64,000 nucleotides of DNA from Bacillus sp. 103mf (GTDB lineage: Bacteria > Bacillota > Bacilli > Bacillales > Bacillaceae_G), in NCBI RefSeq assembly GCF_900116295.1, contig NZ_FPAF01000001.1, positions 62,001 to 126,000 on the forward strand. Reading direction: 5' to 3'. This document shows positions 13,660-64,000 of this stretch, one piece after another (position 1 is the stretch's first letter; each line of letters begins with the position of its first letter). A program made the translations under genes and the position numbers. Under the pieces are notes generated by a model. The model saw only the letters and a program-made list of their open reading frames with translations, did no database searches and was not told the DNA's origin.

Positions 13660-13690
13660 TTTGTAATATACAAAAACACCTCTATATGGG

Positions 13691-14814: not shown

Positions 14815-14860
14815 TGAACCTGGTATAATGGTACTTCAGAGTGTCCCATATGACTTGTTT
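14815..14860. promoter_or_regulatory. Dyad region upstream of the resolvase
   Basis: GGTTCTTTGAACC (14816-14828) is a short exact dyad, close to TATAAT and about 50 bases before the resolvase start. Serine resolvases act at res sites beside their own gene, so this region is a candidate res/operator. Confidence 0.35.
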
Positions 14861-14879
14861 CAAAATAGGAGAGTAGAAT

Positions 14880-15452: not shown

Positions 15453-15459
15453 TAAAAAT

Positions 15460-15505
15460 ACCCGCCCGAATTGGAAAATTTTTCAGATGTGGCGGGTTAT
15501 TCTTT
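15460..15505 (+). terminator. Probable resolvase terminator
   Basis: ACCCGCC and GGCGGGT pair across a 24-base loop and are followed by TATTCTTT. The long loop makes this moderate. Confidence 0.45.
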
Positions 15506-15608
15506 GAATTGTTTCCGTACCCCAGAAACGGCAATAATACTCCAAACCCTTAAAATGTGTCCAAAATGTGTCTAAATGTACGATTTTCTTTTTTTGATAT
15601 GGTGACCC

Positions 15609-15747
15609 CATGCCTATCAACTTAAAAAATTAATTGTTCCTCAAAAAGAAAAAATGAACTAAATTCCCATGGACACTTATATGCCTATGAAAAAATGAAA
15701 TTTTGTTTTTGGGGGCACTTCAAAATGTTAGCTTGATAGCGATGCGG
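15609..15747. mobile_element. IS231-derived mini-element (copy 2, inverted)
   Basis: CATGCCTATCAACTTAA at the left and TTAGCTTGATAGCGATGCGG at the right bound about 139 bases that are homologous, in reverse orientation, to 10139-10267, including flanking GGTGACC and TTTTTTTGATAT. The two copies enclose the ABC, GNAT and resolvase genes. Confidence 0.7.
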
Positions 15748-15812
15748 CGAGACCCCTTTTCATCATTTGTCATCTTCTACTTAAAAAATATCTCATTAAT
15801 GGTGTGTTGATA

Positions 15813-16034
15813 TCAAGCAAATCTAAATTCTGCGAGATCTATAAATCTAATGTTTTTAAATTTATGTTTTTCAATAATTTCTTTCACTTTTTCTGTCACA
15901 ATAATGACCCCAAACCAGTTTTTGAAGAAAAATATGTCTGAACCATCCCATTCTTTTGTATTCACACTTAATCCTTCTATAGTACGTGTATTCTCTAAAA
16001 TTCTCCCACAATGATGGCATTTTTTAATTTGCAT
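15813..16034 (-). CDS. Small protein with N-terminal CxxC, unknown function
   Basis: A 73-residue protein starts MQIKKCHHCGRILENT, a CxxC knuckle, and has no second Cys pair, so a zinc ribbon would be incomplete unless it dimerises. The second half (WDGSDIFFFKNWFGVIIVTEK, IRFIDLAEFRF) resembles the C-terminal half of some bacterial immunity-type proteins, but too weakly to name it. GAGAG precedes the start by about 8 bases. It may be a truncated copy of a longer gene. Confidence 0.5.
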   Translation of the reverse strand: MQIKKCHHCGRILENTRTIEGLSVNTKEWDGSDIFFFKNWFGVIIVTEKVKEIIEKHKFKNIRFIDLAEFRFA

Positions 16035-16090
16035 AAGTTTCTCTCATTATATAAAAAGTCAAAATCATCACTTCCTGTTATTTTTTAGGT

Positions 16091-16119
16091 TTGGCTTGAT
16101 ATGATATTATTATTATATT
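16091..16119 (+). promoter_or_regulatory. Promoter of the small membrane protein gene
   Basis: TTGGCT (16091-16096), a 17-base spacer and TATATT (16114-16119), about 34 bases before the start codon. Confidence 0.5.
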
Positions 16120-16152
16120 AATGATTATTAATATTAAATAGGAGAATTATTG

Positions 16153-16338
16153 ATGAAGAAAAAAACAGGTAAAATATTTTTTTATTTAGATTTTATATGT
16201 CTTATAATATCAATTGGTCTTGTATTTGCTAGCTTAATTTATTTTAATTCGTGGGCCTATCCAATAATATTTATTATGTTTACTTTAAGAATGTTTTATA
16301 ACGTATTAGATTATGTTAAATCTAAGCCTGAAAAATAG
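16153..16338 (+). CDS. Small two-helix membrane protein
   Basis: A 61-residue protein with two hydrophobic segments (about 8-27 and 32-50) and basic ends (MKKKTGK, VKSKPEK). The start is ATG at 16153, 8 bases after AGGAG, with a sigma-A-like promoter upstream. Its function is unknown; no family is recognised. Confidence 0.6.
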   Translation: MKKKTGKIFFYLDFICLIISIGLVFASLIYFNSWAYPIIFIMFTLRMFYNVLDYVKSKPEK

Positions 16339-16412
16339 TCTTAATAATTTATTAGAAATTTATTTCTTCCCAAATTTACTTGGTAATGTGACGGTATCCT
16401 AAATAAGACAAA

Positions 16413-16763
16413 TTATTCTTTTATTTTTTCCTCATATAGTTTAGCAATCTTATAAAAAGAAGAACGTTTGATGCCATACTTTCTCATAGCTCCTACGACT
16501 GTAATTGAACCAGATTTCCATTCCTTGTAAGCATCCTTAAATTCTTCTGTTATTTCGACAGGCGGACGTCCTAAACGTTTACCTTGTTTTCTGGCAAGAG
16601 CAATTCCTTCAGCTTGACGTTGTTTAATATCAATGCGCTCTTTTTCTGCAAAGGCTGATAATATTGTAAGAGTTGCTTTTTGAATTGCGCTCTGAATGAC
16701 ATCATTTGTACCTTCTCCAGTATAATTGACGTTAATAGGTTCTGGTACAAAAAAATCTGCCAA
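16413..16763 (-). pseudogene. DNA invertase/resolvase, N-terminally truncated
   Basis: About 110 residues match the second half of a serine recombinase: the E-helix part TILSAFAEKERIDIKQRQAEGIALARKQGK, GRPP, and a terminal helix-turn-helix ending MRKYGIKRSSFYKIAKLY. The catalytic N-terminal half with the nucleophile serine is missing, so it cannot recombine DNA, although it may still bind. The first residues (MADFFVPEPI) are not recombinase-like. It borders a phage-type gene, suggesting prophage or invertible tail-gene remains. Confidence 0.75.
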
Positions 16764-16810
16764 ACTTGGACATACTAATACTATTAATCTAAAAAGGATG
16801 TGGATTATGT

Positions 16811-16879
16811 ATGTCTAAGCCGAGTGCATTCAATTTAAATACACGATTTCAAATTGATGAATTTGTTGATGTAAAATAA
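16811..16879 (+). CDS. 22-codon ORF, possible 5' remnant
   Basis: A short frame starts MSKPSAFNLNTRFQIDEF after AAGGATGTGG and ends 22 codons later, just before a terminator hairpin. It could be a leader peptide or the truncated start of a lost gene. I do not recognise it. Confidence 0.3.
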   Translation: MSKPSAFNLNTRFQIDEFVDVK

Positions 16880-16881
16880 AA

Positions 16882-16913
16882 AAACCGACTCAGAATTAAG
16901 AGCCGGCTTTTTT
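16882..16913. terminator. Stem-loop terminator
   Basis: ACCGACTC and GAGCCGGCT pair imperfectly with A- and T-runs on either side, so it can serve both the plus-strand ORF and the beta-helix gene. A near copy stands at 18802-18826 on the other side of the beta-helix gene. Confidence 0.7.
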
Positions 16914-16929
16914 CCATCTCGTCCTCTAC

Positions 16930-18660
16930 TTATACAGGGCTAGAAACTAAAGTACCATTATTGTCAATGGTTACTTTTCTTTTTACACCATTCGTATCAT
17001 AAGCGAAGAAACCAACAAATCCTGCAGATGAGGATACTAAAACACAACCTGTTTTTCCTTCCACATCATTATTAAATACTTGTACATTAGAACATGTAGG
17101 AGTAACTTCAATCCCATATTTATTTTTATTTTCGGTAGTTGACATCCTCACTCTATTATCACGAATGTACCCTTCTTTAGAAGCACTACCAACTAAAATA
17201 GCACTACGTTGATTGTCAGCTTCAAGCGAAGTATTGCGAATGTTATTCTTATCAATAAAGAATCTTGTAATAGATTGGAGGAAGATTCCTACACGACCTG
17301 AGTTAATCATAATATTATTAGAAATATCAACATCCTCTAAAAAATCAGTGTTATCTGAAGAAGTTAATGCTGTATTATAGATGAATTCATTTCGTGAATC
17401 TTCAAAAGAATTATATTTAATTTCTAACTTTCTACATTGTTTGAAAAAAATATGTCTAAATGATTTCTTGAATGTATTGCCTCTAATTTTACATCTGTCA
17501 ACATACGAAAGTACGATAGTAGCAAAATCTTCGGGTGAATTGCTCTCTTTAAATTCATTATCAATAATTTTAACGCTATCAAAGAAAGCTGCTTTCTTAT
17601 CATTTTGCCATCCAACAATATAGATATCTTCTCGTCTTGTTCCTGAGAATGTATTTTCTTTTACAACAAAGTTATAACCTGATTCTGGCATTCCTGTGTC
17701 ATTACCTTCGCGGTCTTTTTGCCCCTCACCAGAACTTCCATCAGGATTCGAATGTGCTATAGCTCTCTCACAATTTAAGAATGTATTTCCTTGTATAGTC
17801 ATATCGCCAAATTTCAAAGCACGAACACCTGCATAAGTTGCATTCTCAAATGTATTATTGATAACTTTAATATTTCTATTGAAAAGGAACATTACAGAAG
17901 AATGATTTCCTATTCCCGTAGCTATCGGATTCATCCCTTTCGTATCACTACTACCAAAATAACAGTCACGAATAGTTATATTATCACAAGGTTCTCCATC
18001 CCATGCTCCAAAATCAGAAAATCCTAACTTAGTATGGTTAGAGATTTGAATAGATTCTGCATACCCTCTTGATTTATCCGTGGTTGCATCTTTGTAGCCT
18101 AAAAACTTACATCTTTCAATTACAACATTACGACAAGCGTTAATATCCATCATATGAGCATTAATAACATCTTTGAAAGTAATATCTCTAAACGTTAGAT
18201 TTCCCCCTCGAGCCCATCCTGTCATGTTAAATCCTTGGGGAAACTCAAGGACATTACCATCAAACGTTCCACCTTCAATACTTATGTTGCCGTTACCATT
18301 ATAGCCTTCAAACAAATCTCCTGAATTTCCATTTTTCATAATACCTCCTGGATGCCCTCTTAATAAAATCGCATTTTTCCCCAGACGTATTTTCGTATTT
18401 TTGTAAACAGTTAAATATTTTGTTATACGATAAATACCTGAAGGAATAAAAATATCAACTCCTCCTTCATTTAATGCAATATCTAATGCTCTTTGTATAG
18501 CTTCGGTTGTTAATGTACCTTGTGTTCCGTCTGCTTTTGCACCATACATTCTTACATCAACATAAGGAAAAGTTGAGTCCTCAGTTTTCACATTAGTTTC
18601 CATTTCAATATTCTCGTTACCTAAGGATTTATTTGAATTATTATCTATTTGATGAATCAT
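16930..18660 (-). CDS. Right-handed beta-helix (pectate lyase-like) phage tail-spike-type protein
   Basis: A 576-residue protein with the start YVDVRMYGAKADGTQGTLTTEAIQRAL, typical of the N-terminal cap of pectate_lyase_3 tailspikes and depolymerases. Then come many degenerate right-handed beta-helix turns (about 120-520; repeated patterns such as KIIDNEF, VINNTF, IRGNTF). The C-terminal tail TIDNNGTLVSSPV may be a small trimerisation or receptor tip. There is no signal peptide, so it is not a classic secreted lyase. Tail spikes bind or cut surface polysaccharide. No other structural phage gene is nearby; similar terminators sit on both sides, as if it were a cassette. Confidence 0.75.
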   Translation of the reverse strand: MIHQIDNNSNKSLGNENIEMETNVKTEDSTFPYVDVRMYGAKADGTQGTLTTEAIQRALDIALNEGGVDIFIPSGIYRITKYLTVYKNTKIRLGKNAILLRGHPGGIMKNGNSGDLFEGYNGNGNISIEGGTFDGNVLEFPQGFNMTGWARGGNLTFRDITFKDVINAHMMDINACRNVVIERCKFLGYKDATTDKSRGYAESIQISNHTKLGFSDFGAWDGEPCDNITIRDCYFGSSDTKGMNPIATGIGNHSSVMFLFNRNIKVINNTFENATYAGVRALKFGDMTIQGNTFLNCERAIAHSNPDGSSGEGQKDREGNDTGMPESGYNFVVKENTFSGTRREDIYIVGWQNDKKAAFFDSVKIIDNEFKESNSPEDFATIVLSYVDRCKIRGNTFKKSFRHIFFKQCRKLEIKYNSFEDSRNEFIYNTALTSSDNTDFLEDVDISNNIMINSGRVGIFLQSITRFFIDKNNIRNTSLEADNQRSAILVGSASKEGYIRDNRVRMSTTENKNKYGIEVTPTCSNVQVFNNDVEGKTGCVLVSSSAGFVGFFAYDTNGVKRKVTIDNNGTLVSSPV

Positions 18661-18801
18661 GTTATCTCTCCTTTTTATAGAAACAGTTAAAGTTATATAA
18701 GATAATATTATATCGTTATATATTTATATTACTAGCCATAATATAAAAGATTTTCCCTCACTACGTGATTTTAAAAACAAAAATACAGAAAAAATAAAAA
18801 A

Positions 18802-18830
18802 TCCGACTCATAAGAGCCGGTTTCTTTTGC
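18802..18830. terminator. Stem-loop near the start of the beta-helix gene
   Basis: TCCGACTC and GAGCCGG pair around a 4-base loop with A-run and T-rich flanks. It is nearly the same stem as at 16882, so the beta-helix gene is bracketed by twin hairpins. Confidence 0.6.
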
Positions 18831-18867
18831 GTTAAGTTAACATACGTTTACATATACATCACTAGCC

Positions 18868-18906
18868 GGGGTCCCGCCAACCAAATGTCATAAAACCCAC
18901 GCTAAG
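18868..18906. mobile_element. Tn3-family (Tn4430-like) terminal inverted repeat
   Basis: The 39 bases start GGGGTCCCGCCAACC and end ACCCACGCTAAG. I recall the 38-bp Tn4430 end as GGGGTACCGCCAGC... ...CCACGCTAAG, so the match at both extremities is close. No matching opposite end was found in the window. Confidence 0.6.
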
Positions 18907-18989
18907 AGCATGCAAAATTTTATACAGTTTTTCGGCTAATCCAGTAACAAACGAGAACCCGAAAACCGCGCCAGGATAGGAATGCATAA

Positions 18990-19060
18990 AAAATGCATCG
19001 ATCCATAGAACAAAAAAAGGAGGTTCCCTTGTGAGAGTAAGGGTCCGTCTTTTTCCTTGC
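18990..19060. other. Hairpin-rich gap next to the Tn3 end
   Basis: The interval holds AATGCATAAAAAATGCATCG (a palindrome) and a hairpin CCCTT...AAGGG flanked by A- and T-runs (19013-19055). It is probably transposon end DNA with a terminator. No gene. Confidence 0.35.
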
Positions 19061-19067
19061 TACCGCT

Positions 19068-19105
19068 AATGTTGCGTTATGTTAACCGAGCATGTATAGG
19101 ATATA
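19068..19105 (+). repeat. Direct repeat copy 1, GTTATGTTAACC type
   Basis: CGTTATGTTAACCGAGCATG followed by TATAGGATATACA. A second copy is at 19422 with 26 of about 31 bases alike; a reversed relative (GTTAAGTTAACATACG) is at 18831. The core GTTATGTTAAC is a dyad, like the arms of tyrosine recombinase sites. Confidence 0.45.
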
Positions 19106-19143
19106 CAATCCAAAAAACACCGCACATCACTTTTTAGAAATGG

Positions 19144-50769: not shown

Positions 50770-52008
50770 TCACATTACATTTGTACTGCTCATGTTTTCT
50801 TCTATCGTTCTTTTACGAAGCAAACTTCTTGTTAATAAAAGAATCGGAAATGCAAACATTGAAAGAGTCGCCAAAATTGTAAAAATCACAAAACCACTCT
50901 GATAACCGTAATAATCTAACAGAGCTCCTCCAAACCATGGTCCAATAACAGCACCAATTCCAGAGAACCCCATCGCACCGAAATAAGTTCCCTTTAAATT
51001 TGAAGCTGCAATTTGATCAATAAACACATCTGTCATGGAAAACATTAGTACTTCTCCAATTGTAAATATGATTGTACAAACGAAAACAGCCCACATTGAC
51101 CCTGCAAATCCAAATCCACATAATCCCGCACTAACAAGTAGTGTACCGATCATAATTGATACAAGCGGTGTATACCTTTTACAAGCTTGCACGATTGGAT
51201 ACTGGACGATAACGACAGTAACTGCATTTAATGTTAATGCGTAAGAAAACAACGTCACTCCATTTTCAAATACATGGGAGTTCGCGAAATATTGAGAAAG
51301 CGTTGATGAAAATTGCGCATATCCTGCTGTACTAATAATAATTCCAATTAACGCAACTAAAAAGACAATGTCTTTTCTTATAATGTGCAAAGAATCTATA
51401 AAAGTAGCTGCCTTTTTCTCTTCTTTTTTTCCTTCTTCAATATGATACTTTCGAAACTGTACTACAAGCACAATTGCATATAGAACATACACAACAGCTG
51501 TTATAAAAAATGGCATTGTTGATTTTGCACTGCCAAGCTGAAGACCAATAAGCGGTCCGATTGCAAATCCGACATTAATCGCACCATAGCGCAAGTTAAA
51601 CACCATTAAGCGATGCTCTGGCTTTGTTAAATCGGATAATAAAGCACGGGACGTTGGTTCAAAAAATGAACGGCACATCCCATTTAGTGCATTTAGCAGG
51701 AAAAATGCAACAACATGCTCCGCAAATCCAAATCCAATGAAGACAAGAATCCAAACAAAAATAGAGGCTAACATAATCTTCTTTCGCCCATAACGATCTG
51801 ATAAATTTCCGCCAATAAAACTTGCGAATACACCAACTAATGCGCTCGTTCCAATAATAGCTCCTGCAACTCCAGCTGATATTCCTTTTGCAGTCGTCAA
51901 GTAAATTGCTAAAAATGGAATGCTCATCGATGTTGCAAATCTTGCAAATAATGTTCCAATAATGATATTCATCCCGATTGGATGAATGTTCCTTAACTTC
52001 TCCTTCAT
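50770..52008 (-). CDS. MFS drug/efflux-type transporter
   Basis: A 412-residue MFS protein with 12 helices. The helix 2-3 motif GGNLSDRYGRKKIMLA (motif A) and the helix 4 arginine in NGMCRSFFEPTSRALLSD are those of DHA1 efflux proteins. A long frame runs up to 52098, but that part overlaps the next gene. AAGGTG lies 7 bases before the ATG at 52008, so the start MKEKLRNIHPIG is used. Substrate unknown; it is possibly in one operon with the gene at 52091. Confidence 0.82.
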   Translation of the reverse strand: MKEKLRNIHPIGMNIIIGTLFARFATSMSIPFLAIYLTTAKGISAGVAGAIIGTSALVGVFASFIGGNLSDRYGRKKIMLASIFVWILVFIGFGFAEHVVAFFLLNALNGMCRSFFEPTSRALLSDLTKPEHRLMVFNLRYGAINVGFAIGPLIGLQLGSAKSTMPFFITAVVYVLYAIVLVVQFRKYHIEEGKKEEKKAATFIDSLHIIRKDIVFLVALIGIIISTAGYAQFSSTLSQYFANSHVFENGVTLFSYALTLNAVTVVIVQYPIVQACKRYTPLVSIMIGTLLVSAGLCGFGFAGSMWAVFVCTIIFTIGEVLMFSMTDVFIDQIAASNLKGTYFGAMGFSGIGAVIGPWFGGALLDYYGYQSGFVIFTILATLSMFAFPILLLTRSLLRKRTIEENMSSTNVM

Positions 52009-52090
52009 CTCTTTCACCTTCTCTATATCTAAATGCAAAGAAAAAGAAAGCTGAAAAGCAGCTTCCTTTGAAAACATAATTTTCGTTTTC

Positions 52091-52483
52091 TTAAACACGA
52101 GCTGTTCGTTTCAGCTCCATATCAATACCATATGTAAACTGTAATTCTTTTAATACTTCCTCTACTGTAATATTCACATTATGTTTATTATTAAATTCTG
52201 CTACACAGTTCTCTACTTCTTCATGTGTATAAGCATATTCCCCAGAAATGAAACTTTTCATATCAAAACATTCATTAATACAAAGTTGAATTAGGAGCTG
52301 ATCATACATAGAAACTATATCTTCTTTTTTCCAAAATAATTCTTTCACATATAATCGATCAAATGTTACACTTTCACGGTTACATTCTTTTAAATGACGG
52401 GTCATTTCATGCAATTCTCGGTATAGTTCAGAAATACTTGTGTTTAGATGAATCAGTTTGCGTACGCCATTTTCATACAACAT
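52091..52483 (-). CDS. Conserved small protein, unknown
   Basis: A 130-residue soluble helical protein without recognised motifs; Cys and His are few. GGGGGTGG lies 6 bases before the ATG at 52483, giving MLYENGVRKL; an earlier start at 52516 has no site. It precedes the MFS gene by 82 bases on the same strand. Confidence 0.6.
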   Translation of the reverse strand: MLYENGVRKLIHLNTSISELYRELHEMTRHLKECNRESVTFDRLYVKELFWKKEDIVSMYDQLLIQLCINECFDMKSFISGEYAYTHEEVENCVAEFNNKHNVNITVEEVLKELQFTYGIDMELKRTARV

Positions 52484-52604
52484 ATCATCCACCCCCGTTA
52501 TGTTCCTTTTTCTCATTATAGCAAGAAAATTCCAAAAAGGAGAATTTTTCTTATGAAATATTAGGAAAATTATACGTATTGTTTTACAATAGAACTATAT
52601 TTGT

Positions 52605-52800
52605 CCATTTTAATTTTTCCACATATAACTCGCTGCTATGTAGAATACAAAAGGACTGCTACTTGCTTTCTCCTTTTGTTTTAAACCTTGCCTGTGGCAG
52701 AAAAAAAGGCCCTGACCGCTTCTATGCATGGCCAGATGCTCTCGCTCACCTAAAAAGAAAGAGTGTTTTTAGGTCGATTTTTTAATTTGTATTTATATAG
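52605..52800 (+). repeat. About 200-base dispersed repeat (copy 3)
   Basis: About 85 percent alike by eye to 30960-31152 over its full length: CATTTTAATTTTTCCACATA, CGCTGCTATG, GGCCCTGACCGCTTCTATGC, ATTTATATAG. The common conserved core and fixed ends indicate an interspersed element. Confidence 0.75.
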
Positions 52801-52823
52801 CTAAGTTTGAAAGGAGTAAGATT

Positions 52824-54032
52824 GTGAATCACAAATTATTTTATGCAGATTCATATTTACAAACATTTACAGCTCAAATCACAAAACAAATACGTGACAA
52901 AGACGACAAAGTCTATGTTGTATTAACACAAACAGCGTTTTATCCAACGGGCGGTGGTCAGCCACATGATACAGGGTATTTAAATCAAATTCCTGTTATA
53001 AATGTAGAAGAAATAGATGGAGAAATTCGTCATTACATTACTGAAGAGATACATGCAGATGAAGTAACGGGACATGTTTCTTGGAAACGTCGTTTCGATC
53101 ATATGCAGCAACATGCTGGGCAACATATTTTGTCCGCTATATTTTGGGATCACTTCAACATTCCAACAATCGGTTTTCACTTAGGAAGAGAAATCGTAAC
53201 AATTGATTTAGAAACTTCTGACCTTTCTTTAGAAACAGCTGAAGAAGCTGCTTATCTTGCTAATCAAATTGTATTTGAAAATCGGCCAATTACAGTTCAG
53301 TGGGTAAATTTAGAAGAAGCAAAGCAACTTCCTTTGCGCAAGGAACCAACCGTAACAGAAAATATTCGTGTTGTTATTATTGAAGATCTTGATTATAACG
53401 GATGTGGCGGTACACATCCAAAACAAACTGGTGAAGTCGGCCCAGTTCAAATCATCAATTGGGAGCGTCATAAAGGAAACATTCGCCTTACATTCGTTTG
53501 CGGCTGGCGTGCAATTGAACTGATGAAGCGCAATCAATCCCTCGTAAAAGATGCCACGCAACAATTACATAGTAAAGAAAACGATATCCCAAGCAAAATA
53601 AAGCAGCTCCTTTCTACTCAAAAGGAAACTGAGAAAGCGTTGCAAGCAGTCAACGAAAAACTCATTCTTGTAGAGGCAAATGAATTGTTACAGCAAGCAG
53701 AAAAAACTTCATTTGGGAAACAAATTGGTGTTAATTTTACAGATCGTTCTATGCAGGAACTTGCAAAATTAGCAGCTATCCTTACAGAAAAAGATGAATA
53801 TGCCATTACATATTTTGTTACACAAAACGGCGAAAACTTACAATGCATTTGTGCATGTGGTCCAGCCGTTAAGCTAAATATGAATATCCTTTTAAAAGCA
53901 GCCCTTCCCCTTATAGAAGGAAAAGGTGGCGGAAATCCAAAAAGCGCACGCGGCGGCGGTAAAGCAACTGTTACAGGCGAAGTATTTTTATCGCACCTTA
54001 TTCATATACAAGAAGAAACACAAGAAGCATAA
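52824..54032 (+). CDS. Alanyl-tRNA editing protein AlaX-L (DHHA1 type)
   Basis: A 402-residue free-standing editing enzyme that removes Ser or Gly from mischarged tRNA-Ala. The N-terminal part resembles AlaRS-like beta-barrel (FYPTGGGQPHDTG, 40-52). The zinc site of the editing core is HAGQHIL (His 98/102) and CGGTHP (about 196). A coiled coil and a DHHA1 domain with GKGGGNPKSARGGG (about 370) follow. It starts at GTG after AAAGGAG (7 bases). Confidence 0.9.
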   Translation: MNHKLFYADSYLQTFTAQITKQIRDKDDKVYVVLTQTAFYPTGGGQPHDTGYLNQIPVINVEEIDGEIRHYITEEIHADEVTGHVSWKRRFDHMQQHAGQHILSAIFWDHFNIPTIGFHLGREIVTIDLETSDLSLETAEEAAYLANQIVFENRPITVQWVNLEEAKQLPLRKEPTVTENIRVVIIEDLDYNGCGGTHPKQTGEVGPVQIINWERHKGNIRLTFVCGWRAIELMKRNQSLVKDATQQLHSKENDIPSKIKQLLSTQKETEKALQAVNEKLILVEANELLQQAEKTSFGKQIGVNFTDRSMQELAKLAAILTEKDEYAITYFVTQNGENLQCICACGPAVKLNMNILLKAALPLIEGKGGGNPKSARGGGKATVTGEVFLSHLIHIQEETQEA

Positions 54033-54051
54033 ATAGCTTCTTGTGTTTCTT

Positions 54052-54639
54052 TTATATGTGAAGACTCTTCTCTTTCAGAATATGAAGTAACTGATGATAA
54101 GAATCAATATAATAATCTGCGTCTTGAATTATCTCGTTTTGAAAAGCACATGTTGTGATTCCTAGTTTTGTAGCTGGTATAATGTCTAACTCACGATCTC
54201 CCACGACAAAATTAATAGAGTGTTTCTTTTGCATATGGATATATGCTTCCGGATTCGGCTTTTTAGGAAATCCATCTTCCCATCCAATAATTTCAGAAAA
54301 GTAGTGTAACCACCCATAATACTCTAAGATCCGCAGTACTTCCTGCCTCGAATTATGCGTTACAATGCAATTGCAATTCGCTCTTTGTAATACTCCTTCT
54401 ATTCTAGGAAACAGTTGATATTCTGATGGATGCAAAGACCTTTCCATTTCTAATATTTGATCAATTTGTTGTTGTCATAATCCATAGTATTTTACTACAT
54501 GTGTAAATAAAATCTTTAAATGGTTCATAATTTCATCTTCATGTATATTTTCTTCTACAACTCTTTTAAACATACGTATAAATACACAATAACTATCTAC
54601 TAAGGTACCATCAAAATCCCACAATATATTTACATTCAT
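54052..54639 (-). pseudogene. HAD-family phosphatase with in-frame TGA
   Basis: From the ATG at 54639 (AAGGAGAG, 5 bases upstream), MNVNILWDFDGTLVDSY opens a phosphoglycolate-phosphatase-like HAD enzyme. After 54 codons the frame is cut by TGA (54475-54477), then continues without shift: QQQIDQILEMERS, VTHNS (motif II), PKKPNPEAY (Lys), VGDRELDI (motif IV). Total is 195 codons. Everything except the stop looks intact. A shorter product could start at Met54447 but would lack the catalytic DxD. Confidence 0.8.
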
Positions 54640-54667
54640 ACGCACTCTCCTTAGGATGTATAAAGTC

Positions 54668-54745
54668 CATGCCCATCAACTTAAGATTTTAAAGTACCCC
54701 CAAGATGAAATTTTTCTCGCCAAATTTATTTAGGATAATTAAGTT
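54668..54745 (+). mobile_element. IS231-type terminus, solo
   Basis: CATGCCCATCAACTTAAGA matches the IS231 terminal inverted repeat as I recall it, followed by TTTTAAAGTACCCCCAAGATG as in the mini-element at 10139. There is no transposase gene. The rest of 54640-54913 is empty. Confidence 0.6.
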
Positions 54746-54913
54746 CACTTTTTTGGTTTTTGTTCACGAATAATAAAGTTGTTCAAAATAAAATGGATAC
54801 TAAGAGATTTAGTGTCGTTTTTTCTATATCGTTTATAATGATTATATAGAATATTTGGTAATTGATATTTAACACAAAGACAATAGTAAGAATTAAAAAA
54901 AGGAGAGGTATTT

Positions 54914-55222
54914 ATGGACATTGATTTATTAGTAAATCGGCCAGAGCATATAGAAGATGTTACTAAAATGGTTTACAAAAAATTTGTTATACCAACTAGT
55001 AGTAAAAAAACATATGAAGAAGTTGTCGATTTTTTTAAGGAAACATACGCAGATATATTTCCAATTACTTTTATAACGAATGTAGATGGTCAATGTGTAG
55101 GGACAGTATCAGTATTTGGAGACTTATCTAAAATTGAAAGGAGTGAAATGATTGAAACACTGTTCGGTTTTGTGCTAGCATGTATTTGTGTGGTAGATAT
55201 GGCATATGACTTTCTAAAATAA
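54914..55222 (+). pseudogene. GNAT acetyltransferase, 3'-truncated
   Basis: MDIDLLVNRPEHIEDVTKMV then PITFITNVDGQCVGTVSVFG is the N-terminal half of a GNAT protein (up to strand beta 2-3). After LSKIER the frame becomes unlike a GNAT (ACICVVDMAYDFLK) and ends; the acetyl-CoA loop is missing. A scrap of an IS231-type end (GGGGCATGACAACATCGCC, 55243) follows. AGGAGAGG precedes the ATG. Confidence 0.6.
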
Positions 55223-55267
55223 CTCTATAAAACAACTAAAAGGGGCATGACAACATCGCCATCCCAT

Positions 55268-55311
55268 CTTTTTGTATTAGTAGTTATTGTTATACCTACT
55301 AATACAAAAAG
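55268..55311 (-). terminator. Terminator of the alkaline phosphatase gene
   Basis: CTTTTTGTATTAGTAG and CTACTAATACAAAAAG pair exactly around a 12-base loop. Confidence 0.85.
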
Positions 55312-55344
55312 GGGAAATATGGATAGTAAACATATTTCCGAATT

Positions 55345-56661
55345 TTAAAGCTTAATTCCAGATGCTTTTGCAATTAATTTTGGAAGGTCTGTATTATCAT
55401 GTAACCCTCTAAACCATTCAAAATTCGGACCAAATGCATATACGGGATTATTAACACCTGTATGCCCAATAGTTGTCCACCCTATTACTGCATGTTCACT
55501 AATGATATCATTAATAGTCGGTTTCATATCTGCCGATTCCTTAATTCTTTTTATTTCTTGATCATTTAAATCAATATTTGCATACTGTTTTAACACTTCT
55601 TGTATGTTACTTTTTTCATTATTGATTTGCTTGGTCATAAAATCCCCTGAAGCATTTACATTACGCAAGATTTCAACATGTGTAGCAAAGACGCTTCCTC
55701 TCCCAATTGATAGCCCTCCAGTATCATGATCTCCCGCTATAACAACCAAAGTTTCTCCATCTTTTTTTGCATAATCAAGAGAAACTTTTACTGCTTTTTC
55801 GAATGCCTCAACTTCTTTCATAGCTTTTGCAGCATCATGCTCATGACCCGCATCATCTATTTGACTACCTTCCACCATAAGAAAAAATCCATTTTCATCT
55901 TTTTTTAACGTATTCAGAGCTAATGTTGTCATATCTTCAAGGCTTGGCTGATTGGTGTTTTCCCGATCTAATTCAGGTGACATTGCTTCATTAGCGAATA
56001 AACCTAATATTTTCCCTTTTGTTTTAGCTTTAACAAGCTGTTCATGCGTATCTATTAATTGATATCCTTTTTTTTGTGCCTCAGCAATTAAATTTCTTGT
56101 TGGTTGCTTTCCCCCTTCTGTTACAGGAAGAAAAAATTGTTTTCCTCCCCCTAAGAGTATATCAACATTGTTATCTACTATTTGAGTTGCAATATCCACT
56201 TCTTTAGCACGAGAAACTACATGAGAAGCAAAAGTTGCCGGGGTAGCATCAGTAATACTTGCTGTTGCAACTAATCCCGTTGATTTCCCTGCTTCTTTAG
56301 AAGCTTCAAGAATTGTTTTTAATTTCTCTCCTTGAGGCGAAACACTTACCATATCATTATTAGTTTTTACTCCCGTTGCCATTGCTGTTCCTGCTGCTGC
56401 CGAATCAGTCACTTGCTGATTTGCAGGATGTGTACGAATCATTCCAACAAGTATTTGATCCATCACTAAACCTGAACCTTTATACCAATAGTAACTGCTC
56501 GCATAACCTGCTGAAAAACCATCCGGGATTAAAAAGATTACATTTTTAACTTTCTTATTTACATTTCCATTTTTTGCAGATACTTTTTTATCAAAATGAA
56601 AATAAACTCCTGAAAATAATAGGCTAACTCCCAATACAATTGTTGCTACTTTTTTAAACAT
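55345..56661 (-). CDS. Secreted alkaline phosphatase
   Basis: A 438-residue PhoA-family phosphomonoesterase. A signal peptide (1-29, ending VSAK) precedes IFLIPDGFSAGYAS (first metal Asp), the nucleophile region DSAAAGTAMATGVKTNN (Ser about 89), SQIDDAGHEHD (metal His/Asp) and VIAGDHDTGG plus GWTTIGHTG near the end. It releases phosphate outside the membrane. GGAGG precedes a double ATG; the second, at 56661, has the better spacing. It is single, and phosphate-starvation control would be usual, but I saw no clear Pho box. Confidence 0.9.
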   Translation of the reverse strand: MFKKVATIVLGVSLLFSGVYFHFDKKVSAKNGNVNKKVKNVIFLIPDGFSAGYASSYYWYKGSGLVMDQILVGMIRTHPANQQVTDSAAAGTAMATGVKTNNDMVSVSPQGEKLKTILEASKEAGKSTGLVATASITDATPATFASHVVSRAKEVDIATQIVDNNVDILLGGGKQFFLPVTEGGKQPTRNLIAEAQKKGYQLIDTHEQLVKAKTKGKILGLFANEAMSPELDRENTNQPSLEDMTTLALNTLKKDENGFFLMVEGSQIDDAGHEHDAAKAMKEVEAFEKAVKVSLDYAKKDGETLVVIAGDHDTGGLSIGRGSVFATHVEILRNVNASGDFMTKQINNEKSNIQEVLKQYANIDLNDQEIKRIKESADMKPTINDIISEHAVIGWTTIGHTGVNNPVYAFGPNFEWFRGLHDNTDLPKLIAKASGIKL

Positions 56662-57156
56662 CATCTCTCCTCCAATTAAATATAAATCAATTGATTATTG
56701 ATCTAATAAATAGCTTCATTAAGTATAAATATTTCATTCTCTTCATACTTGCCCTCTTGTTTAGTAGATTCGTATTACAATTCATAGTATAGAATATGCT
56801 ATTGTAAATATGAATAACTCTCACCTAATTTTGGCTTTTTATATATTGAGAAAGTTTTATTCTTACTTAATCTTATCTCGAAGTACCCTTATAATAATTC
56901 CTTTAGTAGAGCTTATTTCTTTTACAATTCTTATAAGAGAGAAACATTTATTTATATAAACAAATAAAAAATACTTACTTATGTGAGTGGAGTACCTCCA
57001 GTAATGGGGGATGAGAAAGGTCCATTATCCAGGAAAAATAAACTGGAAAGGAATTAAAATAAAAAACAAACATAATTCTAATATACGCATATAACGAATT
57101 AACATCTGAGTGAATTGGTAACAATAGCAACGTTGAAACAAACAAAAAAGGTATAA
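56662..57156. other. Gap without a recognised gene
   Basis: AT-rich DNA holding the alkaline phosphatase promoter. Around 56985-57020 the words GAGTGGAGTACCTCC and GTAATGGGGGATGAG recall a degraded bcr1 hairpin. Nothing else is seen. Confidence 0.3.
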
Positions 57157-57456
57157 GGTGTTCTTCTTTATTCTAATCAAGGAAATATTTATATAGCGAA
57201 AGCATTTCAAGTCTCAAAAAACAACAGAATGATTACAAGCACATCATAAAAAGGAAATTTGTATAATAACACCGTAATAGAAGATTTCTTAAAACATTTG
57301 AAAAGTAAAGCTTTTTATTCACCAAAAATAACAAGAGTATCTAACATAGTCGTGCGAAAGAGTGTACTAGCATACATTCATTACTACAATTGTATGCTAA
57401 TTCAAGAGAATTTAAATTACCTGTCCCCTAAAAAATTTAGAGAACAGGTAGTTTAG
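57157..57456 (+). pseudogene. IS3-family transposase OrfB, C-terminal remnant
   Basis: The frame reads YSNQGNIYIAKAFQVSKNN, a TAA, then GNLYNNTVIEDFLKHLKSKA, FYSPKITRVSN and LNYLSPKKFREQVV. This is the end of the IS150-group OrfB integrase (DDE region: the last catalytic Glu is at VIEDF). An in-frame stop and the missing front show decay. An OrfA scrap stands at 76. Confidence 0.75.
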
Positions 57457-57478
57457 TCTTTTTGACAAGCACCCTATT

Positions 57479-58489
57479 CTATTTTGTTAATGCCGTAAAA
57501 TTAAAGTCCGTGATAGGAGTTTGATTCTCTATTTCATCTTTAAATCTAGCAAGCATATCTTTTTCTTCTTGGCCAATTGTATCAAAATCAAAAGCCTGAT
57601 GTAATAATCCATAGATGAGCATGTGACGTAAACGTAGAAAATCAGGAATTCTCTCTAAGGAATTTAAATCCAGCTTATTGTGTTCTTCATACCCTTTCAG
57701 AAAATTACGCATAAATTTTTCCGTGAACGCTGCCTTATCTTCATATGGAATCACTGGGTACCATAAAACATTGTATAATAGAATGCTAATGTCATTTACA
57801 AACCAGTTGTAGCCTACATCATCAAAATCAAACATGGTAATTTTACCATTATCCCAGCAAAAATTACCGTGATGCAAATCCGCATGGACTAGCCCATAAT
57901 TATCTCGATCCTTTGGTAATTGACGTAGTGCATCCATTAACTTATCTGCCTGTTGAAAAACAATTGTTTGATCTTTTGGTACGTATTTTCTCAATTTTAA
58001 TTGTTCCTCTTCATCCCACTCTTGTCTTTTATATGCAGAATTACTTAACTGATAGCTTTTTGTTAAACGATGCATGTTACCTGTATACTTTCCAAGCTGA
58101 TAAAATAATTCTTCGTTCCAATCTGACGCCTCTACTTTATGACCTGTGGCTTTCTCATAAACTCTCAATAAAAATGCGCCACCCTCACCTTTTCCATCAC
58201 ATACTTCTTCAATATAATTTCCTTTTAGTGATGGAATTGGTCTGGAAACAGAGAGTCCTCCCTTTATTAAATGGTGAAGCCATTCCATTTCTCCCATAAT
58301 ATATTCAGGTATTCTGCGAATTGTATGAGTAATTTTCAAAATATATGATACTCGATCTTTCGAAAATTCATATACATAATTTTCTGCATCAGCAAGAAAA
58401 TGAGCATCTTCTCTATTAAACCCATATATTTTTGCTGCTTTTTTTATTATCTCTTCTTCATTAAAAATAGCTTTTATATCTTTATGCAT
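57479..58489 (-). CDS. APH-fold small-molecule kinase coupled to the PKS/NRPS
   Basis: A 336-residue phosphotransferase of the aminoglycoside phosphotransferase/choline kinase fold. An N-lobe with a lysine in YILKITH (about 51) precedes the Brenner motif YGLVHADLHHGNF (about 198-210, catalytic Asp in HADLHHGN) and the metal Asp in MFDFDDVGYNW (about 219). Its ATG lies 8 bases inside the end of the PKS/NRPS gene, so the two are translated together. It may phosphorylate the product for self-protection, a precursor, or a tailoring site. A similar fold also occurs in homoserine kinase and CotS, so the target is open. Confidence 0.82.
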   Translation of the reverse strand: MHKDIKAIFNEEEIIKKAAKIYGFNREDAHFLADAENYVYEFSKDRVSYILKITHTIRRIPEYIMGEMEWLHHLIKGGLSVSRPIPSLKGNYIEEVCDGKGEGGAFLLRVYEKATGHKVEASDWNEELFYQLGKYTGNMHRLTKSYQLSNSAYKRQEWDEEEQLKLRKYVPKDQTIVFQQADKLMDALRQLPKDRDNYGLVHADLHHGNFCWDNGKITMFDFDDVGYNWFVNDISILLYNVLWYPVIPYEDKAAFTEKFMRNFLKGYEEHNKLDLNSLERIPDFLRLRHMLIYGLLHQAFDFDTIGQEEKDMLARFKDEIENQTPITDFNFTALTK

Positions 58490-61400
58490 GCTGATTCTCT
58501 CTCCTCATACATTTTGCGAGTCCTCTAATTGTATGTTCCGTCGCAAAATTCATATTATCAACAACCCATCCTTTTTTTTCTATTTCCACTTCCATTTTGA
58601 TAGCTAACAGCGAATTTCCTCCTAAACTGAAAAAGTCTTGGCACATTCCTATTTTATCTAATTTGAGGATATCTTTCCATATATTCATAAGAATTGCTTC
58701 TTGCTCAGTCATTGATTCAACTTCTTGTAAACTGAATTTTTGATTTTTTCTCACTAATAAAGATTGAAGTTTTTCAGGACAATTCATTTCAAGGGCACGT
58801 AAGTATGATGTATGCATAGATTTTTCAGGATATAACACATCCCATTGATAAACTGAACTTTTTGCTAATCGATCCCTTTTTACTTCATATTCAGCAGCTT
58901 TATCCGATTCATCTTGTTTAATCAATGTTATTTTTTTATCTGTATAGTACTCGATATACGGACTATAATCAGGAATATTTTTCACTGCAATGTGATACGT
59001 CGATTGCTCATCCACATCTATCAGATGTATATCGTGTGTATGCATAAATACTTTAAAAGGCTGGTTTTTCCCTGAATCAACATATTTAAACTTTATATAC
59101 TTAAGCTGTTCGTTTCGACAATATTTAGCGATACCTGATAACACCTTACTTTCAATTCCTTTTCCAAGTGCTCGGCAACTTATTAAAAAGGTATCAATGA
59201 ATAAAGTGTCTTGTGCCTGTTTTGCCAGGATCACTCCGATTATCCCCTCATCGCTAAATCGGTCAGTTGATTCAACAACCCATCCAATTCTCCCCTTTGA
59301 ATTCAACTGTTGGCGAAGCCATTGCTCATCATAAACAGCTGGATTCATATTAAACTGATTAACTCTAGCAGTCATTTGAGAAATGCGAGGTAGATGTTCT
59401 TCTACTATACGATTTAAACTGACCTTTAAATTTAGAGTACTGAGAAAATCCTCAACAGAAGCTGCTGTATGAAGAGCCGATTTCCGCTCTTTTTCTGCCA
59501 AGTATCTTTCCGTTCGTTTTTTATCTTCATCAGTCACATGAAAATGATCAAATGCCCATACATGCTCCAAAAACAGAGGAATCGCTTCAGTGCTAGTCGG
59601 TAAAAGTAGCGTAAGGACATCTGGAAGTCGCTGGTTCATTGTTAAACATTGAGCGGGATCATCATCCAAGAAAATAAAACGATCGGTAGATAAGTTTAAT
59701 TCTTTGGCAAGTTCTACAATGTTATCATTCTTTTGTCCCCAGTTAATACGATGATCAACAAAATCACTTCTCTTTAATATCATATCTGGATGATGATCAA
59801 ACACGCTCCATACATCTTCTTCATTGTTTTTGCTACAAAGAACAAGTAGTAATCCTTCCTCTTGTTTTTTCTTTAAAAACTTCTGTAATTCTTGATGAGC
59901 CTTTGTTATTTCAATTCCTTCAACACCAACCTCAGAAACCACACCTTTCCATAATGTATGGTCACAATCAATTGCTGCAACTTTGAACGGCACTTTTAGC
60001 CAAGCAATTAATTCGCGTGCAATTCTCGTTCCTAATGCTGCATAATAATTTTCAGTGAATGGAATATGCGCAGCTTTTTCAGCTTGATAATCAAATACTT
60101 CATCTAATTGATATGTCTCCCTCAATTGACGGAAATCTATAAGATGAATATTTTCAATTCTAGTTAAACCTTCAATCCAGTCTTTCTGTATTCTCTCAAG
60201 CTGTTTCTGGAATTGACCATTAAATATTTCTCTAAGTGGAAGAATTCCAATCAGGTAAGGTACATGCTTTTCTATGTTCTTAATGATATTTAAAAGATCA
60301 AACAAATTCTGTTGTAAATGCTGCATTTTCTCTTTTTCTGATAGACTTGCATCTCCCATTAAATCCTCTAAACGGATCATTAGAAGATTCGCTCCTTTTT
60401 TACGACGAGATAACAAACTATCTTTATTTAATAATTCCTGAAAGACTTGTCCATAGGGAGAAAATTCAATTTCAACATTCAAATCAAACTGTTCTCCCCA
60501 CCATCTAATGTATGGAGCAAGTGGATTAGCTATAAAAGTCGAACTCACAGTTAGTAAAGTTGAGTTTGAAACTTTGTTTGTTTTCTCCCTCTTCTTTTTT
60601 GCTTCTTCCTGTTCTTTCGGACTAAGTATTGGTATATTTTTCATAATTTCTTGAGGCTGATCACTTACTTTTTCAATCAATGAACTGAAATGTGAGACAA
60701 ATGCCTGCATGGATTCTGATTTAAATAATGAACTATTATACTGAAGTACACATTTTAATTCTCCTGTTACCTCTTTAACTACGTCCATTTTCATATCTAG
60801 TTTCGATATACCTTTTGCAAACTCATAAGTTTCAAATTTCATTCCATCTGCTTCCATTTTAATATTTGGATCATATTCATTATGGTAAATCAACATCGTA
60901 TCAAATAAAGGATTGCGGTTTGGTTCGGTCTTAGGACACAATTCTTCAACAATTTGATTAAACGGATAATCTTGATGATCATATGCTTCAAGTAGAGTCT
61001 GCTTTGTTTTCAATACATTATCAATAAAAGATTGTTCTTGATTAATTCGAAGCCTTATCGGTAGAAAATTAGTAAACATCCCAATTGTATGCTCTATGTC
61101 AGCATGACGTCGGCCAGCAACTAAAGACCCAATCATTAGCTCCTGCTGATTTGTATAACGCGAAAGCAAAATTCCATATAATTGAAATAACAGTACATTG
61201 TTTGTCAAGCGATACTGATCACCAATCTGTTCAAGTTTTTTCACGATTTTAGGGTCAATTGTAAATTTGATGGCTTTTCCAAGAAAGCTCTTTTCTGTTC
61301 GTTCGAAATCAAACGGCATTGCTAATTGCGGTACATCAGCTTCAAGTTGCTGAATCCAATATTGCTTTTGTTTATAGAACATATCACTTTGGAAATATGC

Positions 61401-64000
61401 GTGCTGCCATTCAGCGTAATCCTTATATTGTACTTTTATTTCAGGTAGACTCTCACCTTTGTACAACTGCGTAAATTCCTTAATAAAAATATTCATGCTC
61501 GCGCCATCAGCAACAATATTATGCATATCAACCAATAAAGCATGCTTTCTATTATCTAATTTTACAAACTTCACACGAATTAAAGGGGACACTTTTAAAT
61601 CAAAAGGACGAATAAAATCATCTATTTCCTTATCTAAATTTTCCATATCTGATTCAGTTATTTCAATTGCAAAATCAAACTCACGATGAATTTTTTGTAC
61701 AGGTTCTCCATCCTTCAATTCAAATGTCGTACGAAGTGTTTCATGCCTTTCAATTAGCTGTTTAAAAGTCTTTTCAAAACGTTTCACATCCATTGGACCA
61801 TAGCATATTAGCGCCATTGGCATATTATAAGTGGTCATTTTCCCTATTCTTTGATGAACAAGGAACGTTCTCTTTTGAGCTGCTGATAGCCTATATACAT
61901 CCTTCACTTCAGCAGGTGTAATCGCTGTATATTGATTTCTTTCTGAACGTTCTATAAGTCCTGAAAGTGTTTGTATTGTTGGATGCTTAAATATATCGCT
62001 TAATGTTAATTCTACCCCAAATTCTCTGTGAATTCTTGATATTAATCCCGTAGCATTTAAAGAATGCCCTCCCATTTCAAAGAAATGGGTATCAATATTA
62101 ACTTGGTTAATTCCGAGAATATCCTTCCACATATTAGCCAATACAACCTCAGTTGCATTAAAATCCACGTTATAATTCGAAATGTTTTGTTTATTATCAG
62201 TTTTCGGGCTGTTAGGAATTACAAGTTTAAACTCAGAAGATAAGGCTATATCAGGCCCTTCCGTTACTTTATCGATCCAATAACGTTCTTTCTCAAACGG
62301 ATAAGTAGGTAGTGATACCGTATGACGCTTTTCTACTTGATGAATTTCTTTCCAATCAATTGGTATCCCTTGAAGCCACATATCTCCCAATCTGATTAAA
62401 AGATAACGGTAATCCGAATATTGCTCCTTAGGGTGCCGCAACAATTGAATAGCAGATACTTGTTCTTCTTGATCCATTTTGTGAATAAAGGAACTGAGTG
62501 AATTGCCTGGTCCAACCTCAATAAAAATCGGGTTCAACTCTTCTTGTAAACGCTTTGCACAATCCATAAAACGAACAGTTCCGCGCAGGTGATTTGCCCA
62601 ATATCTTGGATTAGTAGCCTCTGCATTAGTTATCCAATCCCCTGTTACATTTGAAACAAACGGAATACTTGGGCTTTCAAAACAGAATTCTAACAATTTA
62701 TCTTTAAAAGGCTGTACAATAGGATCCATCATAGCTGAATGAAACGCATGCGAAGTATAAAGTTTCCTAGATATGTGTCCATCTACAGTCAACCTTTTTT
62801 CTAACGCATCCAGTGTATCTACTTTTCCAGATACAACACACAAACTAGTTGAATTGACAGCTGCAATCGATACATTATCTTCTAAATAATTCTTTAAATC
62901 TGCTTCACTAAGTTCCACACTTAGCATAGAGCCTGAAGGTAAGCTTTGCAAAGTACTACCTCTGTACGCCACAATTTCTAAAGCATTTTCTAAGGACATA
63001 ACACCTGAAATTGCTGCTGCAGTATATTCCCCTATACTGTGTCCCACCATAGCTTCCGGCTTAATCCCCCAATGAATAAGTGTCTTTGCTAAGGCGTACT
63101 CGATACTAAAAAGAAGAGGTTGTGTAAATTCAGTTTGATTAATTAGATCCGAATCATGGTCCTTTGAGTCAGTAAATAAAACAGTACGAGGATCAACTCT
63201 CATAAACTGCTGTAATAGATTCAGACATTTGTCTAGTTCAGCTTTAAAAGCAGGAACAGTGTCATATAATTCTCTTCCCATATCAACGTACTGTGTACCC
63301 TGACCCGGAAATAAAAAGACAACAGGTCTGCTAGAAGTTTGGGAGCTTGCTAATTTCATCTTGTCTTTTCTATTTTCATTAATTATATCAAGCAGTTCTG
63401 GAACATCCTTACTTACAATCGCTTTCTTATAAGGAAAAACGTGTTTTCCTCTTTGAAGTGTATACGATACATCAGCCAGGTTAATTTGCTGATTTTTAAT
63501 AAGATACTCGGCAAAATTTGTAGTCATTTTTTCTAATGCGGCTGGTGTTTTTGCAGATAACAGTATAAGTTGATCAGAAGGTTCATCTGCAAATGATCTT
63601 TGGACTGACGGTGCTTCTTCTAAAATCACATGGGCATTCGTTCCTCCTATTCCAAATGAACTGACACCAGCACGACGAGGGAAATTTTTCTCTTCCCATG
63701 GAACCAGAGATGTATTCACAATAAATGGTGATTTCTCAAAATCAATTTTAGCATTCGGTTTTTTAAAATTGATTGTTGGAGGAATCAGTTTGTGCTGTAA
63801 ACTTAAAACTGTTTTAATAAACCCTGCAACACCAGAAGCATCATTCAAATGACCAATGTTAGATTTAACCGAACCAATTCGACAAAATCCATACTGTTTA
63901 GTCTGAAAAGCTTGTTTTAAGGCTTCAATCTCAATAGGGTCTCCAAGTGTTGTTCCTGTACCATGAGCCTCTAAATATGTGATTGTCTCTGGATCCACCT
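58482..64000 (-). CDS. Hybrid PKS-NRPS, KS(partial)-AT-ACP-C-FkbH-carrier protein
   Basis: The last 1838 codons of a polyketide/peptide synthase cut by the window edge. Counting from 63998, the order is as follows. Ketosynthase C-terminal part: EAHGTGT 10-16, KSNIGH 45-50. Malonyl-type acyltransferase 225-520: PGQG, GHSIGE 319, HAFH 417. Acyl carrier protein 615-685: GGHSL, Ser646. Condensation domain 700-1110: HNIVADG 826, where the second His is Asn. FkbH domain 1146-1690: HAD motif DCDHTLW 1344, DDDPAQC 1445, with a GNAT-like tail. C-terminal carrier protein 1762-1833: LGGNSL, Ser1796. No adenylation, ketoreductase or thioesterase domain is visible. FkbH domains load a glyceryl unit from 1,3-bisphosphoglycerate. 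The kinase gene at 57479 overlaps its stop. Confidence 0.9.
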   Translation of the reverse strand, partial: VDPETITYLEAHGTGTTLGDPIEIEALKQAFQTKQYGFCRIGSVKSNIGHLNDASGVAGFIKTVLSLQHKLIPPTINFKKPNAKIDFEKSPFIVNTSLVPWEEKNFPRRAGVSSFGIGGTNAHVILEEAPSVQRSFADEPSDQLILLSAKTPAALEKMTTNFAEYLIKNQQINLADVSYTLQRGKHVFPYKKAIVSKDVPELLDIINENRKDKMKLASSQTSSRPVVFLFPGQGTQYVDMGRELYDTVPAFKAELDKCLNLLQQFMRVDPRTVLFTDSKDHDSDLINQTEFTQPLLFSIEYALAKTLIHWGIKPEAMVGHSIGEYTAAAISGVMSLENALEIVAYRGSTLQSLPSGSMLSVELSEADLKNYLEDNVSIAAVNSTSLCVVSGKVDTLDALEKRLTVDGHISRKLYTSHAFHSAMMDPIVQPFKDKLLEFCFESPSIPFVSNVTGDWITNAEATNPRYWANHLRGTVRFMDCAKRLQEELNPIFIEVGPGNSLSSFIHKMDQEEQVSAIQLLRHPKEQYSDYRYLLIRLGDMWLQGIPIDWKEIHQVEKRHTVSLPTYPFEKERYWIDKVTEGPDIALSSEFKLVIPNSPKTDNKQNISNYNVDFNATEVVLANMWKDILGINQVNIDTHFFEMGGHSLNATGLISRIHREFGVELTLSDIFKHPTIQTLSGLIERSERNQYTAITPAEVKDVYRLSAAQKRTFLVHQRIGKMTTYNMPMALICYGPMDVKRFEKTFKQLIERHETLRTTFELKDGEPVQKIHREFDFAIEITESDMENLDKEIDDFIRPFDLKVSPLIRVKFVKLDNRKHALLVDMHNIVADGASMNIFIKEFTQLYKGESLPEIKVQYKDYAEWQHAYFQSDMFYKQKQYWIQQLEADVPQLAMPFDFERTEKSFLGKAIKFTIDPKIVKKLEQIGDQYRLTNNVLLFQLYGILLSRYTNQQELMIGSLVAGRRHADIEHTIGMFTNFLPIRLRINQEQSFIDNVLKTKQTLLEAYDHQDYPFNQIVEELCPKTEPNRNPLFDTMLIYHNEYDPNIKMEADGMKFETYEFAKGISKLDMKMDVVKEVTGELKCVLQYNSSLFKSESMQAFVSHFSSLIEKVSDQPQEIMKNIPILSPKEQEEAKKKREKTNKVSNSTLLTVSSTFIANPLAPYIRWWGEQFDLNVEIEFSPYGQVFQELLNKDSLLSRRKKGANLLMIRLEDLMGDASLSEKEKMQHLQQNLFDLLNIIKNIEKHVPYLIGILPLREIFNGQFQKQLERIQKDWIEGLTRIENIHLIDFRQLRETYQLDEVFDYQAEKAAHIPFTENYYAALGTRIARELIAWLKVPFKVAAIDCDHTLWKGVVSEVGVEGIEITKAHQELQKFLKKKQEEGLLLVLCSKNNEEDVWSVFDHHPDMILKRSDFVDHRINWGQKNDNIVELAKELNLSTDRFIFLDDDPAQCLTMNQRLPDVLTLLLPTSTEAIPLFLEHVWAFDHFHVTDEDKKRTERYLAEKERKSALHTAASVEDFLSTLNLKVSLNRIVEEHLPRISQMTARVNQFNMNPAVYDEQWLRQQLNSKGRIGWVVESTDRFSDEGIIGVILAKQAQDTLFIDTFLISCRALGKGIESKVLSGIAKYCRNEQLKYIKFKYVDSGKNQPFKVFMHTHDIHLIDVDEQSTYHIAVKNIPDYSPYIEYYTDKKITLIKQDESDKAAEYEVKRDRLAKSSVYQWDVLYPEKSMHTSYLRALEMNCPEKLQSLLVRKNQKFSLQEVESMTEQEAILMNIWKDILKLDKIGMCQDFFSLGGNSLLAIKMEVEIEKKGWVVDNMNFATEHTIRGLAKCMRRENQHA

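Follow-up and report, generated by a model that had tools for sequence, protein, structure and literature searches.

Which pathway ends in the FkbH-containing polyketide synthase–nonribosomal peptide synthetase gene at the edge of this window (the whole 64,000-nucleotide stretch of Bacillus sp. 103mf analyzed here), and what does the last module of that gene do? The gene is a single open frame of 1838 residues on the minus strand (the preliminary description names no strand), running past the window edge, and its visible part contains no frameshift and no stop. Pfam and NCBIfam give the order KS (C-terminal part)–AT–ACP–C–FkbH–PCP, i.e., a KS C-terminal domain at residues 1–78 with its extension at 81–186, an AT at 227–507 (8.2e-47), two carrier-protein stretches in Pfam, of which the better one lies at 620–682, a condensation domain at 699–1132, and an FkbH domain at 1339–1656 (TIGR01686, 269.4 bits, with the cut-off at 146.65); for the 1838-residue part, Pfam lists neither an A nor a TE domain. 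The motifs agree with these assignments: GHSIG at residue 319 and HAFH at 417 in the AT, HNIVADG at 826–832 in the condensation domain, DCDHT at 1344–1348 and SCRALGKGIE at 1607 in the FkbH domain, and both carrier serine motifs. This is the same set of domains, including the HAFH-type AT and the lack of A and TE domains, that had been described from the letters before. One of the PDB chains matched by the AT part is from ZmaA. Judged from a 2136-aa relative (genome G018), about 307 KS residues, including the active-site Cys, would lie beyond base 64000. The coordinates are collected in Table 1.

Table 1. Features at the right-hand end of the window (positions of the window; strand as read)
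Feature	Positions	Strand	Basis and remarks
amiM, 3′ part, KS(C-term)-AT-ACP-C-FkbH-PCP	58482..63998, continues past 64000	-	open frame, Pfam, NCBIfam, homology
KS, C-terminal part	63609..63998	-	contains HGTGT and NIGH; the active-site Cys falls beyond the window edge; inner boundary set by us
AT, malonyl-type motifs GHSIG and HAFH	62478..63320	-	Pfam, motifs
ACP of the last polyketide module, GGHSL	61953..62141	-	Pfam, motif
Condensation domain	60603..61904	-	Pfam PF00668, 3.4e-110
C core motif HNIVADG, Asn replacing the second His of HHxxxDG	61503..61523	-	motif reading
FkbH domain TIGR01686; DxDxT, DD, and SCR motifs intact	59031..59984	-	NCBIfam, motifs
Terminal carrier protein, GGNSL	58485..58706	-	Pfam, motif; boundaries chosen by us
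amiN, APH-family kinase	57479..58489	-	homology; 8-base overlap with amiM
Terminator-like hairpin 3′ of amiN	57418..57450	-	weak: 2 sites in a 4.7-kb stretch versus 1.7 expected by chance
Decayed C-terminal piece of a transposase, presumably IS3-type	57160..57453	+	39% identical to the one between amiN and amiO in G810
Alkaline phosphatase at the amiO position, outside the AmiO clade	55345..56664	-	same direction as amiN; tree

Homology, gene order, and the tree together make it almost certain that the region represents the 3′ terminus of an amicoumacin cluster, with amiM preceding amiN, the self-resistance kinase gene of that cluster; it is a known cluster type, present here as a divergent copy. 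The genes amiA-L of this strain would lie upstream of base 64000, outside the window, and we have assumed their presence. Seven of 398 sampled Bacilli genomes matched at E ≤ 1e-60, and the best of them was G018, with 52% identity over nearly the whole query. Its 2136-aa homologue is 59% identical to the window AmiM over 1846 aligned columns, is the last gene of a PKS/NRPS row, and overlaps by 8 bases a 335-aa kinase gene; beyond the latter, on the opposite strand, come genes for an alkaline phosphatase of 468 aa and a protein of 230 aa. The same four lengths are listed for Bacillus safensis CB729 (AmiM, AmiN, AmiO, and Orf2; PMC12366304). In G810, AmiB, AmiD, AmiE, AmiM, AmiN, and AmiO are 501, 233, 284, 2142, 333, and 459 aa long, and each protein of its whole row has the length, to within 10 residues or exactly, that is listed for its counterpart in the Bacillus subtilis BSXE-1601 amicoumacin cluster (PMC7649127, Table 7). 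Please note that the species types given here to the G018- and G810-like genomes are our own assignments from protein lengths and identities.

Over the C-FkbH-PCP part, the window AmiM is 58–64% identical to its nearest AmiM relatives. Within the genus of G018, matches with E ≤ 1e-100 came from 20 of 44 genomes, 12 of them over the whole C-FkbH-PCP query (ten at 58–59% and two at 63–64%) and the remaining eight in C domains only; in the genus of G398, 9 of 40 genomes matched, two of which (43–44%) fall inside the AmiM clade, and in the family of G359, 2 of 10, one (48%) over the whole query. A query with the C-terminal half against genome_contigs returned 28 loci, the two best by E-value at 37% and none above 39% identity. 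The tree and the motif comparison were based on 33 fetched loci of our choice plus the window, from which the 29 rows above 500 bits were kept and G832, G818, G307, L011, and L008 were left out. The 16 AmiM proteins form one clade with 100/100 support, and the window groups with G810 and G787 (92/87). Neighboring genes were read or searched in seven of the 15 other AmiM genomes (G018, G810, G787, G806, G359, G398, and G816), the rest being AmiM by clade.

The preliminary description had taken this locus for the terminus of an unrecognised biosynthetic operon, possibly with a new glycerate-capped or glycerate-extended product. The domain order is as it was described, and an identity of just 58–64% to the nearest AmiM may seem to favor such novelty, but order, neighbors (amiM-amiN), and clade are all those of AmiM from published producers, and the B. 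pumilus- and B. subtilis-type ami clusters, with proteins about 60% identical, yield the same products (PMC8835302); we therefore hold a new operon to be very improbable. A characterized cluster with the same domain order and high identity had been named as what would speak against an unrecognised operon: the amicoumacin cluster has that order, whereas high identity holds only loosely. Zwittermicin, whose related FkbH chemistry the preliminary description had pointed out, is indeed a relative of the amicoumacin cluster, and Bacillus bingmayongensis is among the listed carriers of B. subtilis-type ami clusters (PMC8835302).

Compared with the single types, the window shares with the B. subtilis/B. 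inaquosorum type (PMC4894447 and PMC7649127; G810 and G787) the amiM order, the amiN overlap, and HNxxxDG, at 63–64% identity over C-FkbH-PCP. The B. pumilus/B. safensis type (PMC12366304; G018 and nine others by clade) has the same domain order, and the same genes where G018 was read, but is 58–59% identical, and the AmiO of G018 is convergent with AmiN. The clusters that we label Paenibacillus-type or Paludifilum-like (G398, G816, and G359) also have an AmiM with C(HN)-FkbH-PCP and differ in being 43–48% identical. For the window kinase itself, identity is 75% to the AmiN proteins of G810 and G787, 71–72% to those of G806 and G018, and 56% to the kinase of G359, with no match for AmiN in the searched stretches of G398 and G816; the kinase motifs HxDxxxxN and DFD are seen by eye in its translation, and the 8-base overlap of amiM and amiN recurs in G810 as in G018.

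G810 resembles the window in having an element between amiN and the phosphatase, namely two transposase ORFs at 2768966–2770152 (L103) that we take to be of IS3 type, in the position and direction of the window remnant but only 39% identical to it. The phosphatase of G810 is opposite to amiN and inside the AmiO clade, whereas that of the window is codirectional and outside. The window phosphatase is 38–41% identical to four AmiO and 34–42% identical to ten other alkaline phosphatases; in the tree the four AmiO form a 100/100 clade that excludes it, its own placement being weak. Its assignment as AmiO was ruled out by this tree, in which its row carries a long-branch warning, and it may or may not serve as AmiO. 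A direct orientation of AmiO with transposon flanking is known from a minor group of clusters, and in some ami clusters AmiO is dispensable (PMC8835302). Further on, a HAD-like hydrolase gene at 54052–54639 (minus strand) is broken by an in-frame stop that, on reading by eye, falls near 54,476, and its 131-residue remainder still matches HAD_2.

Candidate mobile origins were also considered and rejected: there was no near DNA match of 52000–64000 in plasmids or of 57479–63998 in phages, and no viral-contig stretch matched the patterns. In the protein search of plasmids, one of 1592 matching records covers 80% of the query, that of Niallia taxi at 35%. Elsewhere in the window, three pieces within 10267–19106 (13% of a 25-kb query) are 97% identical to plasmid NZ_CP127373.1 of Bacillus arachidis, a species near the Bacillus cereus group; the matched plasmid stretch carries ABC transporter and acetyltransferase genes. 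For the MFS gene of the window and its neighbor, no match appeared among 397 genomes of the order at E 1e-200 or among 34 genomes of one family at 1e-20, negatives of little weight because neither search had a positive control; the best aconitase match was 77% among the 361 genomes scored in a sample of 398 Bacilli. No Rfam families and no tRNAs were found in the window.

What is new at this locus is a clade-wide altered C domain inside an otherwise intact FkbH module of AmiM. The second His of the HHxxxDG core is the catalytic one in condensation domains. The core reads HNxxxDG in all 16 AmiM, whereas it starts with HH in 13 of 13 other aligned C-FkbH modules. A C-domain profile search of the ORFs of the fetched loci gave 128 rows, and 101 after duplicates and rows shorter than 250 residues were dropped; among these distinct C domains the second position is His in 79, Asn in 16, a gap in four, Ala in one, and Met in one. 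The 16 with Asn are exactly the AmiM ones, with none among the 85 others. Within the ami clusters, the motif pattern caught HH in AmiA (G810 and G359) and in AmiI (G018, G810, and G359), which are some of the C domains there, others being uncaught. Taken as a candidate glycerate module, the window thus has the FkbH domain with its catalytic motifs and a carrier protein, and HNIVADG where such a module is expected to have HHxxxDG.

A related small cluster, assembled by eye, was seen in the Niallia taxi megaplasmid (L001, 17375–29365) and in Halalkalibacter urbisdiaboli (L003, 2–14551): a FAAL-like gene with a carrier, a lone AT-like gene, a KS-ACP-C-FkbH-ACP-reductase-like gene, and then a ketopantoate-reductase-like gene. 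It is like AmiM in its KS and C-FkbH-ACP core (36–38% identical) and differs in its separate FAAL-like and AT-like genes, its reductase-like end, and its canonical HHxxxDG.

Selection on the terminal module was estimated by Nei–Gojobori dN/dS in eight AmiM pairs, which share genomes (G018 in five) and so are not independent, and in which some dS values are near saturation: 0.047–0.092 for C, 0.052–0.158 for AT, and 0.065–0.145 for FkbH, the carrier-protein values being too noisy for use. C is below AT in eight of eight pairs and below FkbH in seven of eight. Selection on FkbH does not appear unusually strong, because its protein identity is below that of AT in seven of seven pairs and its dN/dS is lower than that of AT in only five of eight. 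The FkbH and PCP motifs are intact in all 16 AmiM, proteins in which as many as about 57% of the residues are different. At the level of sequence, this purifying selection says that the terminal C-FkbH-PCP module probably still does something.

What it does is not apparent from the published scheme, in which eight modules account for three amino acids and five malonates, with no glycerate step; a glycerate-capped or -extended product, as initially proposed, has no place in it. The general FkbH chemistry invoked for that proposal is sound: C-FkbH-T modules of vioprolide and cystomanamide, compared here by description only, resemble AmiM in that FkbH, flanked by C and T, stands where an A domain would be, but differ in that they incorporate glycerate (PMC8949500). 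The main text of the published scheme speaks of amiK-M, with AmiM, FkbH, and a thioesterase unmentioned, and we found no publication joining amicoumacin and FkbH in the open literature, i.e., outside subscription papers and supplements. That some 1,100 residues form a conserved module without a place in the eight-module scheme, as far as that scheme is readable, points to a gap in a pathway regarded as solved. The FkbH domain of AmiM is the second of the cluster, because AmiF is a discrete FkbH protein (TIGR01686; two genomes were scanned, with 279 and 271 bits); a hydroxymalonyl-ACP has been proposed in the amicoumacin pathway (PMC4894447, Fig. 3 legend), and AmiF fits that route.

In Xenorhabdus bovienii, also an amicoumacin producer, AmiL-M is 3419 aa long (PMC5055758, Table 1), about 1240 aa shorter than Bacillus AmiL plus AmiM, which are 2514 and 2142 aa in BSXE-1601 (PMC7649127). 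From the published protein length only, C-FkbH-PCP is apparently absent there, and since X. bovienii makes amicoumacins with this shorter protein, the chemistry apparently does not depend on the module. When 394 genomes were searched for Xenorhabdus xenocoumacin/amicoumacin relatives with AmiF, two matches were found, both with other PKS/NRPS rows. AmiE/F/H-like genes, 41–57% identical, were seen preceding a different large PKS/NRPS row in L129–L133 (G1120 and G1187); an AmiG-like gene was seen in G1187 only, and the row of G1120 has a stand-alone AT-like gene.

According to the published pathway proposal, the last polyketide module of AmiM (KS-AT-ACP) would add the final malonate, and the finished chain would then rearrange, ring closure releasing the dihydroisocoumarin. 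The terminal C-FkbH-PCP keeps the motifs for loading glycerate onto the PCP, yet would add none to the product, a consequence that we infer from the Asn that its C domain carries at the catalytic His position across the AmiM clade, and from a published product scheme that lacks glycerate. We tentatively favor the reading that the module would hold the finished acyl chain beside the glyceryl-PCP and aid its release, any contact with the glyceryl group being traceless. It is possible, although we regard it as rather doubtful, that this amounts to a new FkbH-based traceless release module, in which the Asn-altered C domain and the glyceryl-loaded PCP would hand off the polyketide for ring closure, and that such a device would be fixed in the sampled Bacillota ami clusters and overlooked because the amicoumacin product bears no sign of glycerate.

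Glycerate might also be truly added as a chain-end ester, as in vioprolide, and be expelled at ring closure, a transient acceptor despite the Asn. The intact FkbH and PCP motifs, the purifying selection on C, and the glycerate esters made by other C-FkbH-T modules (PMC8949500) agree with this, but the catalytic residue is Asn in every one of the 16 AmiM and His in 13 of 13 other C-FkbH modules, which makes it unlikely in our judgment. The same Asn suits a module that is a leftover, its C domain inactive and retained just for protein folding or solubility, as do the seeming ability of Xenorhabdus to manage without the module (the length argument), the absence of a glycerate step in the scheme, and the lower identity of FkbH than of AT; the C dN/dS values and the FkbH motifs intact across such divergent proteins speak against a mere leftover, and we would not expect it to be the answer. 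FkbH-PCP might instead act alongside AmiF, supplying glyceryl in trans for the hydroxymalonyl route (AmiE-H). This agrees with the proposed hydroxymalonyl-ACP (PMC4894447) and with AmiF being an FkbH protein, but AmiF together with AmiG, a discrete ACP, would seem to be enough, the C domain would be left without use, and Xenorhabdus keeps AmiE-H with the module seemingly absent by length; this we consider improbable.

A supposed novel operon is thus removed from the inventory of this strain, and an antibiotic and its resistance kinase are named in its place. The Asn codon of the window is AAT, one base from a His codon, so that the change is one base from reversal, yet Asn is kept in 16 of 16 AmiM. 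If the terminal C-FkbH-PCP module acts in release, as we tentatively favor, it would help explain how the product is released without a terminal thioesterase.
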